A program made the position numbers and the translations under genes. A stretch of DNA of 22,823 bases from a virus. The notes under the pieces were generated by a model. That model did no database searches. It worked only from the letters and a program-made list of their open reading frames with translations, and was not told the DNA's origin. Location: IMG/VR virus record IMGVR_UViG_3300012930_000028, positions 1 to 22,823 of that record. One strand, written 5' to 3'. Of the stretch, positions 3,308 to 13,318 are shown piece after piece; position 1 is the stretch's first letter, and the number at the start of each line of letters is the position of its first letter.

Positions 3308-4192
3308 CTACCACGTATGAATGATAATGTTATCTTTAATAAAACTAAAAACTTGGCGTGATGCCGCCTTAATAATCTTTTGTATTTCTTCCTCTGTGCC
3401 AATGATTTCTTTCTCTTTTACTAAATCTTCAAAATATGCTTTAACTGTGTCGACGATATTTTCAACGTAAGTAAACTTTTGATCGCGCGATAATAATTTT
3501 TCTAAGCGCATTGGTTGGCATAGGTAGTCATAGTCAGTTTTAATAGTTTTTATTCTTTCGATAGGTTTATTTTCATGCTTAAAAACTTTTTTATAAAGTT
3601 TGTGATCAATAGAAATGACAATACCTTCTGGCTCCATAAAACCTGGGCATAGAAGCGAGCCGTTTTTTCTAAGTGATGAAAACATGTCGTTGATGACATC
3701 GTTTAATTCTGATGCTTTTATTAGACCTTCAAAGAGAAGCGGCACTAAAACAGTTTGAGGAGGAAATTCATCTAGTTTTAAATAAGGATTGAATAATACA
3801 AATTTTCTATCGCTTAATCCTTCACCGCTGTTAATTCCTTTTCCGCACCATTCTCCGTAGTAACGCCCGGCAGGTAACTTTAAAAATTCATCTTCATTTT
3901 CTAAAACAAAATTGCAGAAACCGTAGTTATCATCGTCGTATTCAAGCCATCGGGAGCGTGATCCTATTCCTGTAATTTTTTTTATTGTTTTTCCTGGTCT
4001 TACATTAACAAAAGGTTTAGATGTATAAAAAAAATTATCGTGGATATTTATTATTTCTTCTTCTATTAAAATTTGAGCATTAGTGCCATGTATTTTTTGA
4101 GTGATGTAGACGTCTAATCGGTCTATATTTTCAATAGATTTAAAGGATTTGAATAATGTAGGGTCAGAGTTTAATTTATATTTTTCAGTCAT
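3308..4192 (-). CDS. RNA ligase (covalent nucleotidyltransferase family)
   Basis: This 294-aa protein should seal RNA ends through an enzyme-AMP intermediate. The nucleotidyltransferase motifs are visible in order: motif I KIHGTN (nucleophile Lys33), motif Ia SRSR (78-81), motif III YYGEWCGKG (Glu114), motif IV EGIVI (Glu189) and motif V YKKVFK (Lys202/Lys205). A helical C-terminal region of about 80 residues follows. I chose the ATG at 4192 over the in-frame one at 4213 because GGAG sits just before it, inside the end of the upstream gene. It is embedded in the leftward early operon. Known phage RNA ligases can repair host tRNAs cut by anticodon nucleases; that role is inferred here. DNA-ligase identity is unlikely given the size and the KxHG motif. 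Confidence 0.88.
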   Translation of the reverse strand: MTEKYKLNSDPTLFKSFKSIENIDRLDVYITQKIHGTNAQILIEEEIINIHDNFFYTSKPFVNVRPGKTIKKITGIGSRSRWLEYDDDNYGFCNFVLENEDEFLKLPAGRYYGEWCGKGINSGEGLSDRKFVLFNPYLKLDEFPPQTVLVPLLFEGLIKASELNDVINDMFSSLRKNGSLLCPGFMEPEGIVISIDHKLYKKVFKHENKPIERIKTIKTDYDYLCQPMRLEKLLSRDQKFTYVENIVDTVKAYFEDLVKEKEIIGTEEEIQKIIKAASRQVFSFIKDNIIIHTW

Positions 4193-4193
4193 T

Positions 4194-4436
4194 TTATCGC
4201 TCCAAATTTTCAAAATCTATTGCATATTCATCTGTAGTAACAATTGTTTTTATTAATGAAATTGATTTGTAATTATTTAGTTCTTTTTTTAGTTTAGAAA
4301 AAATTTTATAAACTTTGTCATAATTTTGTATTTCATTATTGCCGAGTTCGCTGCTAAACTTTTCACTATTAAAATCAAAATCATAAATTTCATTATATTT
4401 ATTCACTGCTTTAATTTTATATTTTTCTATTTTCAT
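4194..4436 (-). CDS. Hypothetical protein with MKIE-YKI start (80 aa)
   Basis: The ATG at 4436 is preferred to the one at 4451 because GTGGAGA lies 6-10 bases before it and it falls just after the upstream stop. The product starts MKIEKYKIKAVNKYNEIYDF, similar to the protein at 2990-3298. It continues with a lysine-rich helical region (DKVYKIFSKLKKELNNYKS) and an acidic end. One base separates it from the RNA ligase gene, so the two are probably co-translated. No family is recognised. Confidence 0.6.
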   Translation of the reverse strand: MKIEKYKIKAVNKYNEIYDFDFNSEKFSSELGNNEIQNYDKVYKIFSKLKKELNNYKSISLIKTIVTTDEYAIDFENLER

Positions 4437-4437
4437 T

Positions 4438-4653
4438 TTATTTCTCCACAAATTTATACTCTATCCTACCGCCTAAAGCTTTTGCGTACGCGTCTATACG
4501 GTTTAAGCTGGGCGAATGGTCGGTATTATCTTTGCCTTCTTCTAATCGACATATAGAGCCTGCGTGCGTGCCTAGTCTTTCAGCTATTTGTTTTTGAGTA
4601 AGTTTAAGGGATAAACGTTTATTTTTTAGTTGTATTATTATTGGATGTTTCAT
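4438..4653 (-). CDS. XRE-family helix-turn-helix regulator (71 aa)
   Basis: The product contains a Cro/CI-type helix-turn-helix, LTQKQIAERLGTHAGSICRLE, at about residues 18-38. A helix with ALGGRIEYKF follows, typical of small XRE proteins including antitoxin-like and Cro-like repressors. The ATG at 4653 overlaps the upstream stop (ATGA), which decides the start over the upstream in-frame ATG codons. Being in the middle of the operon, it may repress the operon promoter near 7313-7341, whose start site overlaps a palindrome. An orphan antitoxin is the main alternative, since the upstream 61-aa neighbour could be a partner. Confidence 0.8.
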   Translation of the reverse strand: MKHPIIIQLKNKRLSLKLTQKQIAERLGTHAGSICRLEEGKDNTDHSPSLNRIDAYAKALGGRIEYKFVEK

Positions 4654-4835
4654 CTGTCGTATACCTGCCATAAAGATCTTAATAAACATTCCGCATGGAC
4701 TGTAATAGAATCTATATTTTTTTTATCACTTGTAATTTCAACTACTACTAATTTATAGGTATTTTCTTCACATGAGCAACATGGTTTAGACATTTTTAAA
4801 GCTGTATCTTCATGTACTCTAATTATATTAAACAT
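4650..4835 (-). CDS. Cysteine-rich small protein (61 aa)
   Basis: The sequence has KPCCSCEENTYKL (three cysteines near residues 19-22) and VHAECLL (His and Cys near 47-50), a spacing that could bind one zinc ion. Between them lie two beta-like segments (LVVVEIT, IDSITV). AAGGAG precedes the start. Its stop overlaps the XRE gene start (ATGA), so the two are coupled. It could be a partner of the regulator or an independent host-interaction protein. Confidence 0.6.
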   Translation of the reverse strand: MFNIIRVHEDTALKMSKPCCSCEENTYKLVVVEITSDKKNIDSITVHAECLLRSLWQVYDR

Positions 4836-7623: not shown

Positions 7624-7726
7624 GGAGAGGTGGCAGAGTGGTTTATTGCGCTTACTGATTGCTTTACCTCCTGTCAGTAGGTACGGGCTTAATTGCGGGT
7701 CGCGGGTTCGAATCCCGCCCTCTCCT
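7624..7726 (+). tRNA. tRNA-Ser-like gene with an enlarged anticodon arm
   Basis: The acceptor stem is perfect (GGAGAGG 7624-7630 with CCTCTCC 7719-7725). The D arm is present (GCA/TGC around GAGTGGTTTAT), and the T arm is canonical (GCGGG, TTCGAAT, CCCGC at 7702-7718). A 20-nt variable region (7682-7701) makes it a type II tRNA, and the 5' half reads like bacterial tRNA-Ser. The anticodon arm is abnormal: an 8-bp helix (7651-7658 with 7674-7681) closes a 15-nt loop (7659-7673) instead of 5 bp and 7 nt. Within it TTGCT would place U33 and anticodon GCT (7661-7663), followed by about eight extra bases. No CCA is encoded, and the discriminator is T rather than the G usual for Ser. It may be a decoy, an intron-bearing or decaying tRNA, or part of an attachment site. 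Confidence 0.7.
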
Positions 7727-8063: not shown

Positions 8064-8115
8064 TTAATAAATCGTCAGTTTATGTAAATTTTATTGATTA
8101 AATTTAGGAGTAAAA

Positions 8116-8337
8116 ATGCAAGCTATACTTGATAATATTATCGTTAAATCCACAATTTCTGATTCTGAATCCGGTATTGGTTATGGAGAGGTTGAGTCTG
8201 TGGGAATGAATATATCTACTGTTTTCCCAGGAAATAAAGTTTATTTTTCTCTTTGTGATTATTACAAGATAAACAAATTCCCTGAATTTTTTTATGTGAT
8301 AAAAGAAGATGCCGTTCTAGCTATCGATAATCAATAA
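8116..8337 (+). CDS. GroES-like protein lacking the mobile loop (73 aa)
   Basis: This looks like a co-chaperonin (Cpn10) subunit core. MQAILDNIIVK corresponds to the first strand of GroES, GYGEVESVG to the GEVLAVG strand, PGNKVYFS to VGDIVIF, and FYVIKEDAVLAI to the C-terminal strand with ESDILAI. Between residues 11 and 22, however, only about ten residues remain (STISDSESGI), where GroES has its roughly 16-residue mobile loop with the GroEL-binding I-V/I-L tripeptide. The roof hairpin is absent, as known for T4 gp31. AGGAG precedes the start. terS begins one base after its stop, and a second GroES-like gene follows terS. Without the loop it may not bind GroEL alone; it could form mixed rings or have a new structural role. 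The fold assignment is by eye. Confidence 0.6.
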   Translation: MQAILDNIIVKSTISDSESGIGYGEVESVGMNISTVFPGNKVYFSLCDYYKINKFPEFFYVIKEDAVLAIDNQ

Positions 8338-8338
8338 C

Positions 8339-8779
8339 ATGACTTACAACGAACGCCGACAAAAATTTGTAGAAGAAATGGTCTTAAATGGCGGTAATGG
8401 TACTAAAGCTGCTATAGCGTCTGGCGCTTCTGAAAAAAGCGCAAGTTGTATCGCTACTCGATACATGAAAGAAAAAGAAGTCTTAGATAGCTTAAAAGAT
8501 GCTCGTGCTGAACTCAGAAAAAAAGCATGTGAAGTACTTGGCATTAGTCAACTCACTAAAATGCAGATACTTTGGAAGCATGCTAAAAATGCTACCCCAA
8601 ATGAATCAATACGAGCAATAGCTGAACTTAATAGAATGACTGGTGATTACGAGCCAGCCGAAACAAAAAGCGATATAACAAGCGCAGGCGAGCCTTTATC
8701 TTCAGTTGTAATACTCCCAGAAAATAACCGTAACATAAACTTTGAGAATGAAGAGGAAAGCGCGAATGAGAACAGTTAA
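8339..8779 (+). CDS. terS: Terminase small subunit
   Basis: This 146-aa protein should recognise the phage packaging site and feed DNA to the large subunit. The N-terminus (ERRQKFVEEMVLNGGNGTKAAIASGASEKSASCIATRYM) matches the Terminase_2-type small-subunit pattern with its helix-turn-helix. A helical oligomerisation region (about 50-100) and an acidic tail likely to contact TerL follow. Length is close to P22 gp3. It sits immediately before a co-chaperonin gene and terL, and overlaps the former by 14 bases. An AACGAACG copy occurs in its first codons. The packaging site may lie within this gene, as in P22, but I see no proof. Confidence 0.85.
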   Translation: MTYNERRQKFVEEMVLNGGNGTKAAIASGASEKSASCIATRYMKEKEVLDSLKDARAELRKKACEVLGISQLTKMQILWKHAKNATPNESIRAIAELNRMTGDYEPAETKSDITSAGEPLSSVVILPENNRNINFENEEESANENS

Positions 8780-9005
8780 AGACAATCTAATCGTAAAAGT
8801 AGAATACAAAAAATCTGAAATAATCCTTAATGTAAAAACCGAGAACGCCGCGGAAAAAGGCGAAATAGTAGCATGCGGTAAGAAAGTAGAGGAAGTAAAA
8901 GTAGGCGATTTTATTAACTTTTCCCCTTTTGCGGGATTTAAAATCATAAAAGAAGGCATAGAATATCGCGTGATGAAAGAAGACCAAGTCATGATGATAT
9001 GCTAA
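8766..9005 (+). CDS. GroES-like co-chaperonin (79 aa)
   Basis: This protein resembles GroES/Cpn10, the lid of the GroEL folding chamber. Residues 4-11 VKDNLIVK match the first GroES strand. Residues 15-31 form a mobile-loop equivalent with Ile19-Ile20-Leu21, matching the GroEL-binding IVL of GroES. GEIVACG, VKVGDFINF and the C-terminal KEDQVMMI then follow the family order. The roof hairpin is missing, as in T4 gp31. I chose ATG 8766, with GAGGAAA before it, over the in-frame 8742. It overlaps terS by 14 bases and terL by 7. It may retune host GroEL for coat or other phage proteins; a GroEL homologue is not in the window. Confidence 0.8.
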   Translation: MRTVKDNLIVKVEYKKSEIILNVKTENAAEKGEIVACGKKVEEVKVGDFINFSPFAGFKIIKEGIEYRVMKEDQVMMIC

Positions 9006-10414
9006 ATGCTTTATCAGAAGAACAAAAAGCTCAGATAAAAAACGCTCGTACAATCTTTAGACCGCAACCAGGTGGTCAAACCCTTTTCCTTTCATCATCA
9101 GCCGATTTCGTTTTATACGGAGGTCAGGCAGGCGGTGGTAAAACATATTCTCTTATGCTTGAATGTCTTCGTAACTCTCATATTAAAGGTTTTGATGCAG
9201 TTATTTTTAGACGGGAAATGAAGCAAATTACTGCTGCTGGTGGTTTATGGGATGAGTCATCGTCAATCTTTCCTTATTTTGGAGCTAAACCTAACGTACA
9301 ACGCTTAAAATGGGTATTTCCTTCTGAGGCTACGATTGGTTTTGCAGGACTCGAGCTTGAAGCTGATAAGCTAAAGTGGCAAGGTTCCCAAATATGCTTG
9401 CTGTGCTTTGATGAAACAACGCACTTTACCGAGACCCAGTTTCGATACTTGATGACTCGTAATCGCTCTACCTCTGGCGTAAAACCTTATATACGCGCTA
9501 CCTGCAACCCTGACCCCGACAGTTGGGTAAAACGTTTCGTTGAATGGTATCTTTTGCCGCAAGGCACCCCAGACCATTCTAAGCGCGGTATAATTCGATA
9601 CTTCGGTCTTAAAAAGAATGATTATGTTTTCGGCGAAACACCAAAAGAATTATTTCAAAAATACGGTATAGAAGAACAATACTGCAAAACTTACACTTTC
9701 ATTTATGCTACTTTAGATGATAATCAAAAGCTCCTTGAGAAAGACCCAGGCTATGTAACTAACCTTAAACTCGCAGGTGAAATAGAAAGCGAAGCACTTC
9801 TGCATGGCAATTGGAATATCAAAAAAGTCGGCAAGTTATTTAAACCTGAAGACTTCAAAATATATACCGTTCTCCCGCAATTTAAATACAAAATAATCGT
9901 TGCGGATACTGCACAGAAAACTAAGGAAGCAAACGATTACTCGGTCTTACAGTGCTGGGGAATTTGCGATAAAGGAATTTATCTAATCGACCAGTTACGC
10001 GGTAAATATGAATACCCTGATTTAGAGACACTAGCCATTTCATTTGTTCATAAACATTCAGATGTAAAAGACATTTTCGTTGAAGATAAGGTTTCTGGGA
10101 GCTCGCTCATTCAATCTTTGCGCAGAAAGATACTAAAGCCTATCGTTGCCATTCAGCGTAACAAGGATAAATATACCCGGGCTTTTGATGCGCAAGGTTA
10201 TATAAAATCAGCTTACGTATTCGTTAACCCTTTAACCGATTATTACACAGATTACATTAATGAGATGGTATCATTTTGCCCTGAAGGCGATTATGCGCAT
10301 GATGACCAGGCAGACTGTACTTTTGATGCAATTGAACTTCTGCTTATCAACCCACGCTACAAAATAACTCAAGAAGAATACAATTTGAGTTTTAAACCTC
10401 AGATTGTTTATTAA
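8999..10414 (+). CDS. terL: Terminase large subunit
   Basis: This is the ATPase-nuclease motor that packages phage DNA through the portal. Walker A is GGQAGGGKT (residues 41-49), Walker B ends in Asp138-Glu139 (LLCFDE), and the coupling motif is RATCNPD (166-172). The C-terminal RNase-H-like nuclease has the expected acidic residues: Asp303 (VADTA), Asp363 (VEDK) and Asp435/436 with Asp439 (HDDQAD). Length (471 aa) is near P22 gp2. It overlaps the co-chaperonin stop by 7 bases, so translation is probably coupled. All key residues are present, so it should be active. Confidence 0.96.
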   Translation: MLNALSEEQKAQIKNARTIFRPQPGGQTLFLSSSADFVLYGGQAGGGKTYSLMLECLRNSHIKGFDAVIFRREMKQITAAGGLWDESSSIFPYFGAKPNVQRLKWVFPSEATIGFAGLELEADKLKWQGSQICLLCFDETTHFTETQFRYLMTRNRSTSGVKPYIRATCNPDPDSWVKRFVEWYLLPQGTPDHSKRGIIRYFGLKKNDYVFGETPKELFQKYGIEEQYCKTYTFIYATLDDNQKLLEKDPGYVTNLKLAGEIESEALLHGNWNIKKVGKLFKPEDFKIYTVLPQFKYKIIVADTAQKTKEANDYSVLQCWGICDKGIYLIDQLRGKYEYPDLETLAISFVHKHSDVKDIFVEDKVSGSSLIQSLRRKILKPIVAIQRNKDKYTRAFDAQGYIKSAYVFVNPLTDYYTDYINEMVSFCPEGDYAHDDQADCTFDAIELLLINPRYKITQEEYNLSFKPQIVY

Positions 10415-11281: not shown

Positions 11282-13318
11282 ATGGCGTGTCCTGAACCGG
11301 TTGACGTTATTGCAGAAAAAGAACTTTGGAAATCGCTTTATGGTAAAAACAATGAGCGTGGTGAGTATTCAATAAAATTTGGTCAAGTGGGCGATCAATG
11401 GGATTCAGATGTTGCTAGTAGACGTGAATCTACAAATAAAGAATCACTGACATTTAATCTCTGTCTAAAGCACATCAAGAAAATCAAATCTCAATTTCGC
11501 CAGATTGATTTCAATTTAAACGTTTATCCTACAAACCAACGAAGTTATGACAGTTTGGAACTTAATTGTTTCAAGATGCTGTTTAATCACTTCATGATGT
11601 CGGATGAAACCCATAACACAATGGCTCAAGCATGGGACAAAATGGCTGATTTCGGCTATTCTTTTGTTGAAGTTAACTACGATACAGAAAGCGACGATAC
11701 ATTGTCATTAAAGCCAGTATTGCGCATGCATGAAGACCCTGCACTTGCTTTCTGGGATTTTAAGTCTTCTACCCCAACTAAAATTGATGGTGATTATTGC
11801 GGTATGGTTAAAACCATTTCCGATGATGAGCTTCGTGATAAATACGACCAAGCAAAAGATAAATCATTTCTTGAAGAAAAAAATACTGTTATTGAGTATT
11901 GGTATCGAGAAAGAAAAAAAATCGATTTTATTCAATTGGTCGGTGGCGAGTTTAAAAGAAAGGACTTAATAGACGAAAGTACCGATAAAATATACTACGA
12001 TACTACTAGTAATCTAGTGACTAGAAAGGGATATAAAAGCTGTATTTATTACATGGTGATTTGCAATAATGAGGTTCTTGTCAAACCTAAGTTATTCCCA
12101 ACTGAAGACTTGCCACTTGTTTATCATCCTGGATTAACCGTATGGACTCCAGACGGTTATCAGACCTTCCCTTTTATTTTCGCAATGGAAGGCTCACAAA
12201 AGCTTCATAATTTCACCATGAGTCAGATAGCGACTCTCGCGAAGAATGTATCGGCAACTAAATACTTTTTAACACCTGATCACATCCAAACTCCTGAACA
12301 GCGTGATGCTGCGATTAATATTTCAAAATATGAAGGTGCTATTGTGTTAGGTGAGCGCGCGGATGGAAATAGCAAGCCTCCTATGATTGTGCCGCCTTCT
12401 GAAATGCCGATGAGCATGCTTAATCTAGGAACTCAAACTAAGCAGGAGATTGATGAAATAGCGGGAGCGTTTATAGATGGAGCATTAAGCGACCAGTCCA
12501 TGATATCTGGTAAAGCTATCGGTTTAATTGCTCAAAATATGAATATGAGCACGATTAATGCTCATTTAATTTCATCGCAAATAATATTCATTGATTCAAT
12601 TTGTAAATTATTCCAGCAGATGCTTCCTAAAATAGTGACAGAGCAGCGGTGCATTACCATTCATAAAGAAGATGGGTTGTCAGAAGATATATATGTAAAT
12701 CAATTACTTGCGACTGGTAAAATCAAAAATAATATTAAGGATATCAGAAATACTTTTTTATATAACATTAAATCCGGTCCTAGTGCAGAGATGCAGCAAG
12801 AATCAAGTTTGAAGGCATTGATGGCATTTTATAGCGTTCCTCCTACCCCTGATTTTGCAGCAACAAAAGATTTATTCGCCCGTAATTTGCCGATTAAAGA
12901 TATTGACGAGTTTGAAAAGAGAATATTAACTACGATGGATCCAATGTTGATTAAATATACTAATGGCGAAATCACAAAAGATGAATATACAAAATACATT
13001 CAGCAGCAACAAATGCAAGCTCAACAGATGGCTGCACAGCAAGCTCAGATTCAGCAACAAATGCAGCAAGCTCAGATTCAAGTTGAGCAGCAACGCGCTA
13101 ATAGTATGCAGTTCAATGAAGAAACTAAACGCATGAAAGAAATTAGCGATTCACAGGCAGCAGACGCCGCTAATTATATTAATATGGCTAAGGTTCAAGG
13201 CGACCAAGAAATAAAAGCAGCTGATAATGCTTTGGGTCAACAAATGCATGAATTAGAAGTTGCCAAGTTAGCTAATCAGCAATTTAAAGAAATGCAAGAA
13301 ATTAACGCTCATCATTAA
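11282..13318 (+). CDS. Portal protein (P22 gp1-like)
   Basis: This 678-aa protein forms the dodecameric ring through which DNA enters and leaves. Recognisable features include an N-terminal region containing KFGQVGDQWDSDVASRRES, a central wing and stem with GAFIDGALSDQSMISGKAI, and conserved IKSGPSAEMQQES. The C-terminal region (about 575-675) is a long Gln-rich helix (QQQQMQAQQMAAQQAQIQ), as in the extended barrel helix of P22-type portals. Length is near P22 gp1 (about 725). Translation starts one base after the upstream stop without a strong ribosome site, so coupling is likely. The family is assigned by recognition and context. Confidence 0.9.
   Translation: MACPEPVDVIAEKELWKSLYGKNNERGEYSIKFGQVGDQWDSDVASRRESTNKESLTFNLCLKHIKKIKSQFRQIDFNLNVYPTNQRSYDSLELNCFKMLFNHFMMSDETHNTMAQAWDKMADFGYSFVEVNYDTESDDTLSLKPVLRMHEDPALAFWDFKSSTPTKIDGDYCGMVKTISDDELRDKYDQAKDKSFLEEKNTVIEYWYRERKKIDFIQLVGGEFKRKDLIDESTDKIYYDTTSNLVTRKGYKSCIYYMVICNNEVLVKPKLFPTEDLPLVYHPGLTVWTPDGYQTFPFIFAMEGSQKLHNFTMSQIATLAKNVSATKYFLTPDHIQTPEQRDAAINISKYEGAIVLGERADGNSKPPMIVPPSEMPMSMLNLGTQTKQEIDEIAGAFIDGALSDQSMISGKAIGLIAQNMNMSTINAHLISSQIIFIDSICKLFQQMLPKIVTEQRCITIHKEDGLSEDIYVNQLLATGKIKNNIKDIRNTFLYNIKSGPSAEMQQESSLKALMAFYSVPPTPDFAATKDLFARNLPIKDIDEFEKRILTTMDPMLIKYTNGEITKDEYTKYIQQQQMQAQQMAAQQAQIQQQMQQAQIQVEQQRANSMQFNEETKRMKEISDSQAADAANYINMAKVQGDQEIKAADNALGQQMHELEVAKLANQQFKEMQEINAHH
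13037..13080 (+). repeat. 17-bp direct repeat in the portal barrel-helix region
   Basis: CAGCAAGCTCAGATTCA occurs at 13037-13053 and again at 13064-13080, a 27-bp period coding QQAQIQ in frame. The repeat reflects duplication inside the Gln-rich helix. Changes of one period would add or remove nine residues without a frameshift. Confidence 0.85.

Follow-up and report, generated by a model that had tools for sequence, protein, structure and literature searches.

The small gene p1 (8116..8337, + strand) encodes a natural 73-aa protein with a Cpn10 fold and without the GroEL-binding mobile loop. It is located near p2 (8766..9005, + strand; 79 aa), which encodes a loop-bearing Cpn10/GroES co-chaperonin, and it is known so far from one genome. 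Both genes were found in a fragment of an uncultured phage, IMG/VR virus record IMGVR_UViG_3300012930_000028; the window, i.e., the whole stretch of DNA analyzed, comprises positions 1 to 22,823 of this record (22,823 nt).

On the + strand, p1 is the first gene of the late operon and is followed by terS, p2 and terL, with the portal and head genes further downstream. The terminase small subunit gene terS (8339..8779, +; 146 aa) was annotated based on Pfam Terminase_2 (E 1.5e-6) and PHROG 51 (E 1e-9), and the large subunit gene terL (8999..10414, +; 471 aa) based on Pfam Terminase_6N (E 4.6e-21) and PHROG 979 (E 3.2e-108). The head module includes a gene for a P22-like portal protein of 678 aa (11282..13318, +; Pfam P22_portal, E 1.4e-62). 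The original prediction placed two small proteins sharing D-N-[LI]-I-V-K at residues 6-11 on either side of terS, and both the coordinates and the motif were borne out: p1 carries D6-N7-I8-I9-V10-K11 and p2 carries D6-N7-L8-I9-V10-K11. The overlap with the terminase genes, claimed for both, holds for p2, which shares 14 nt with terS and 7 nt with terL, but not for p1, the TAA of which ends at 8337, 1 nt before the terS ATG at 8339.

A ribosome-binding site, AGGAG, was read in the region preceding p1 (8101..8115, +). ATG at 8766 was taken as the start of p2, since the residue numbers of the original prediction fit this codon and AGAGGA is present upstream; the mechanical ORF list instead has TTG at 8742. 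No clear ribosome-binding site was read for either terS or terL, and their starts abut or overlap the preceding genes, so translational coupling of p1 with terS and of p2 with terL is a reasonable inference from the gene junctions. The codon usage of the p1 and p2 frames matches that of the phage's other genes.

Elsewhere in the window, a tRNA gene of 103 nt (7624-7726, +) was detected by Rfam (tRNA, 42.1 bits) and left uncalled by ARAGORN. It appears to be Ser-like; its variable arm is long, and the anticodon region has a long stem with an oversized loop, roughly 14 nt above normal. In addition, the − strand (3308-4213) encodes a 301-aa protein with a K-x-H-G-T-N motif and an RNA_ligase match of 24.0 bits, below the cut-off of 27. 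The occurrence of this RNA ligase-like protein and the odd tRNA in the same fragment possibly reflects a repair or splicing pair.

Judging by its sequence, p2 is a true member of the Cpn10/GroES family, its Cpn10 barrel being assessed by profile only. Its match with Pfam PF00166 (Cpn10) reached 35.2 bits against a curated cut-off of 21.1, with residues 3-77 aligned to profile positions 4-91, and phrog_3188, "co-chaperonin GroES", was matched with E 1.7e-11. Several GroES models of NCBIfam gave E of about 1e-7, none above their own equivalog-type cut-offs, and the phmmer matches were solved Cpn10s and Cpn20. Matches of p2 in Streptomyces phages sit within a 1644-residue protein and were rejected as chance. 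As predicted, p2 keeps a mobile-loop equivalent with Ile-Ile-Leu at residues 19-21: the segment (codons 12-31, 8799..8858, +; VEYKKSEIILNVKTENAAEK) comprises 20 residues, versus 24 in E. coli, and has no Gly-Gly but includes the hydrophobic triplet I19-I20-L21. At the triplet site, two p2 orthologues from related phages carry V-I-Q-I-L and I-I-E-I, so the hydrophobic motif is looser in the p2 clade. Furthermore, the roof hairpin is absent from both p1 and p2; unlike in E. coli GroES, the strand following the loop leads straight to a V-x-x-G-[DN] turn.

To describe the loop of p1, residues were counted from the end of the second strand to the strand that starts with G-[ETF]-[VI] in most Cpn10s. 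This segment comprises only 12 residues in p1 (codons 12-23, 8149..8184, +; STISDSESGIGY), versus 20 in p2, 23 in the two p2 orthologues and 21-29 in ten other Cpn10s, including E. coli GroES and T4 gp31. Given 20-29 residues in all 13 Cpn10s other than p1, the claim that p1 had lost nearly the whole loop was right by length. The 12-residue segment contains no I-[VIL]-[LI] triplet. Canonical loops start with S-x-G-[IL], and the S-E-S-G-I-G of the segment can also be aligned to this start, of which it may be what is left; the loop half lost by p1 is therefore not fixed. A search for natural Cpn10s without the loop, covering open-access papers, revealed only an engineered one.

Sequence comparison clearly points to p1 being a homologue of p2, of Cpn10 descent. 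BLASTP aligned the two proteins over 78 columns with 31% identity (E 6e-7) and a single 8-residue gap at the loop. Their Smith-Waterman score of 72 (z 9.8) was reached by none of 2000 p1 shuffles, the highest of which scored 49. The identity includes both ends of the proteins, DN[IL]IVK and V-x-KED-x-V-x-x-I; in GroES, the N- and C-terminal strands pair between subunits. The profile similarity to Cpn10 that was looked for in both proteins was above the cut-off for p2 and below it for p1, which scored 12.9 bits against PF00166 versus the required 21.1 (E 0.12); the match covers residues 22-70 on profile positions 43-92, that is, the portion after the loop. A weak phmmer match of p1 was to the GroES-like domain of alcohol dehydrogenases, a domain that has the Cpn10 fold; this match and the Pfam one are weak but independent signs of the same kinship.

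Modelled alone, p1 gave a pLDDT of 56.5 and no significant structural match, and this model was too poor for use. AlphaFold2 with a five-row alignment (p1, p2, the two p2 orthologues and one further phage Cpn10) gave a pLDDT of 88.9 and a pTM of 0.78, with strands at residues 7-12, 21-29, 41-45, 50-54, 57-63 and 67-71. The best match of the latter model was 1p3h (E 1.2e-4, TM 0.86 of query). In VIA-align, all 73 residues were superposed on M. tuberculosis Cpn10 at 2.1 Å with Z 12.6; the next matches were those from Thermus, Xanthomonas, E. coli and human mitochondria and gp31, and the dehydrogenases had Z < 8. The named viral structural matches at E < 0.001 were co-chaperonins. Structure prediction, named beforehand as a check that could refute the idea, thus returned a Cpn10 rather than a non-Cpn10 fold when the alignment was supplied, and the other refuting outcome, a lack of profile similarity to Cpn10, did not occur either. 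The model confirms that p1 fits the Cpn10 barrel, although it leans on its alignment and is thus no fully independent proof; together with the p1-p2 homology and the p2 score, it upholds the proposed Cpn10 descent of both proteins. Because of the 12-residue loop without a triplet, p1 is filed as a Cpn10-fold relative and not as a co-chaperonin.

An IMG/VR scan with a terL alignment gave one phage (L020) with a terL 60% identical, and a scan with a portal alignment recovered this phage and added another, the portals of the two (L101 and L102) being 54% identical each. In both related phages, a Cpn10 scoring above the cut-off (34.6 and 33.4 bits) is encoded between terS and terL; L102 apparently has an additional small frame between the Cpn10 gene and terL. 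These p2 orthologues are 113 and 120 aa long, with 34-43% identity to p2. They share a C-terminal tail, M-P-x-x-E-I-N-F-H-T-D-R-K-K, that is absent from p2 (L101:2319-2657 and L102:1705-2064). In a tree of 14 Cpn10s, built on 69 columns and with weak deep support, p2 and its orthologues grouped without p1 (ultrafast bootstrap 86, FastTree 0.95); p1 itself is on a long branch, and its own placement is not settled. Given the position of the orthologues and their grouping with p2, these data identify p2 as the co-chaperonin of long standing in this phage clade, with a conserved position.

The gene p1 was found in neither relative; it should be noted that the L020 search with p1 lacked a positive control and that both records may be fragments. 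Upstream of terS, both relatives encode a different small protein, that of L101 having a helix-turn-helix match just under the cut-off. The implied origin of p1 and p2 as a matched pair was not supported, since p2 and its orthologues exclude p1 and neither relative yielded it. The history of p1 is one of later acquisition, of loss elsewhere or of an old duplication; a recent copy of p2 is disfavoured by the same grouping. No close relatives of p1 or p2 were found in IMG/VR by single-sequence scans, nor were any relatives by a search with the p1 and p2 alignment. A tblastn search of GenBank phages with p1 gave only three matches at E 2-5, one of which was chaperonin 10, and no portal or terL relatives were found in bacterial and archaeal genome contigs. 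No GroEL gene was present in the three records (the window phage and the two relatives), so GroEL would have to be supplied by the host or encoded in a part of the genome that is missing here. In a more distant relative, terL (L006:3237-5870, 877 aa) is, by eye, apparently split by an intein-like insert, within which an HNH/NUMOD-like frame (4023-4745, also read by eye) lies on the opposite strand.

The restriction of p1 to one genome, its score below the family cut-off and its long branch are in line with p1 being a relic, a decaying second groES minus the loop that is retained for now through translational coupling with terS. However, the frame is intact, with its own ribosome-binding site and in-frame codon usage, and the deletion is limited to the loop, leaving the barrel core whole; we regard a relic as rather unlikely. 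It is a more serious possibility, though a tentative one, that p1 works outside the chaperonin cycle, either as a stand-alone packaging or head protein (e.g., bound to TerS) or as a virion component, and that p2 is the sole co-chaperonin. The lack of a GroEL-binding loop, the place of p1 outside the p2 clade and the relatives' having p2 without p1 are consistent with this, as is the location of p1 right before terS, the two being probably co-translated across the 1-nt gap; adjacency to terS nevertheless says little on its own. Moreover, the structure searches gave no Cpn10-fold virion or packaging protein, the best matches being co-chaperonins and then the dehydrogenase GroES-like domain.

The packaging operon had been considered an unusual place for a chaperonin gene. 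This view was not supported, and such a location is not rare: the two relatives keep the p2 orthologue between terS and terL, and groES is a head-module gene in Roseobacter phage CRP-902, Synechococcus phage MinM2, Pelagibacter phage HTVC023P, Caulobacter phage RW and two Manatee Spring phages. As in the window phage, the Cpn10 gene of these six lies inside the late packaging/head operon. However, their groES has terL or a portal-type gene before it and capsid-type genes after it, whereas p2 is between terS and terL; it is single in the stretches read, whereas the window phage has both p1 and p2; and its loop is long, with a Gly-Ile motif. As far as seen, the terS-terL slot for Cpn10 is peculiar to the present clade. 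Siphovirus B8b was reported with groES in 2015 (PMC4294664).

A small gene encoding 55-74 aa, helical-looking by eye, was observed directly upstream of the head-module groES in six phages (L014, L015, L108-L111). These proteins were considered as loop-less Cpn10s and rejected, with a best score of 4.9 bits and a different sequence. A GroEL gene beside GroES was observed in a Manatee Spring podovirus (L008:6368-8258), in Bacteroides phage SJC03 (L012:2938-4837), where the GroEL-like protein is annotated as hypothetical, and in Flavobacterium elemo phages (L016:439-2252).

Based on the above results, we suggest, with a probability of about 0.38, that p2 serves as the phage co-chaperonin lid and that p1 mixes into its rings, which would then have fewer GroEL-gripping loops. 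Seven p2 copies would form an open-topped lid in the style of T4 gp31, bind host GroEL via the Ile-Ile-Leu loop and aid the folding of head proteins from the same operon. The p1 protein, which is of different descent, retains the barrel as well as both terminal strands, by which subunits are joined in GroES; it would enter rings of p2, or else of host GroES, and cut the number of GroEL-gripping loops, and the mixed lid would be weaker or faster-released. Lacking a loop to hold GroEL in the known way, p1 cannot act as a lid by itself. We infer the heptamers, the GroEL binding by p2, the p1-p2 co-assembly and the effect on folding; p2 most likely caps host GroEL like gp31, which has no roof loops and replaces GroES (PMC6318259). 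According to the part of PMC4242682 that cites Nojima 2008, GroES binds GroEL only if at least four of its seven subunits are functional; on this rule, a ring could include up to three copies of p1 without losing GroEL binding.

The same rule, together with the lost loop and the retained barrel and edge strands, would also suit an inhibitor or decoy role, in which p1 would join the GroES rings of the host and leave them with fewer loops, freeing host GroEL for p2. An early takeover function is not what a late-operon site by the terminase genes would suggest, however, and a decoy is improbable. Returning to mixing with p2, the occurrence of p1 in one genome fragment only argues against it, as do the two relatives, which apparently manage without p1; being outside the p2 clade, p1 may never have been in one ring with p2. 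For p1, a task of its own is almost as probable as mixing with p2. A two-subunit GroEL lid, in which loop-less p1 dilutes loop-bearing p2, is doubtful; if true, the loop sequence alone would not set the affinity and release of the lid, which would depend on subunit mixing.

Several known systems can be compared with p1 and p2. T4 gp31 is likewise a phage-encoded Cpn10 without a roof hairpin and, like p2, has a hydrophobic triplet in its loop; the p1 model was superposed on it (1g31) over 72 residues at 2.0 Å with Z 9.4. However, gp31 is 111 aa long and its inter-strand segment has 29 residues, versus 20 in p2 and 12 in p1, and T4 gene 31 lies beside rIII and 31.1 and not among terminase genes. 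In Arabidopsis chloroplasts, Cpn10(1) has no activity by itself and functions only when hetero-oligomerized with Cpn20 (PMC4242682), a precedent for a two-subunit lid that resembles p1/p2 in combining two unlike Cpn10-type subunits, one of them inactive alone in the plant. The plant proteins nevertheless have mobile loops, and p1-p2 co-assembly is presumed by analogy. Among engineered human Cpn10s with the mobile loop altered or removed, some loop-substituted versions are heptamers (PMC5118791). In that case, the loop was removed or replaced on the Cpn10 barrel in the laboratory, whereas p1 is natural.

In this clade, the conserved terS-Cpn10-terL order hints at a tie between assistance in folding and the packaging genes. 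Co-chaperonins of phages have been described before, and the number of loops that a GroES ring needs, out of seven, has been addressed in the laboratory. A natural loop-less Cpn10 two genes from a loop-bearing one would place this question of loop number in a biological setting; alternatively, p1 may show the reuse of the Cpn10 barrel for another task.
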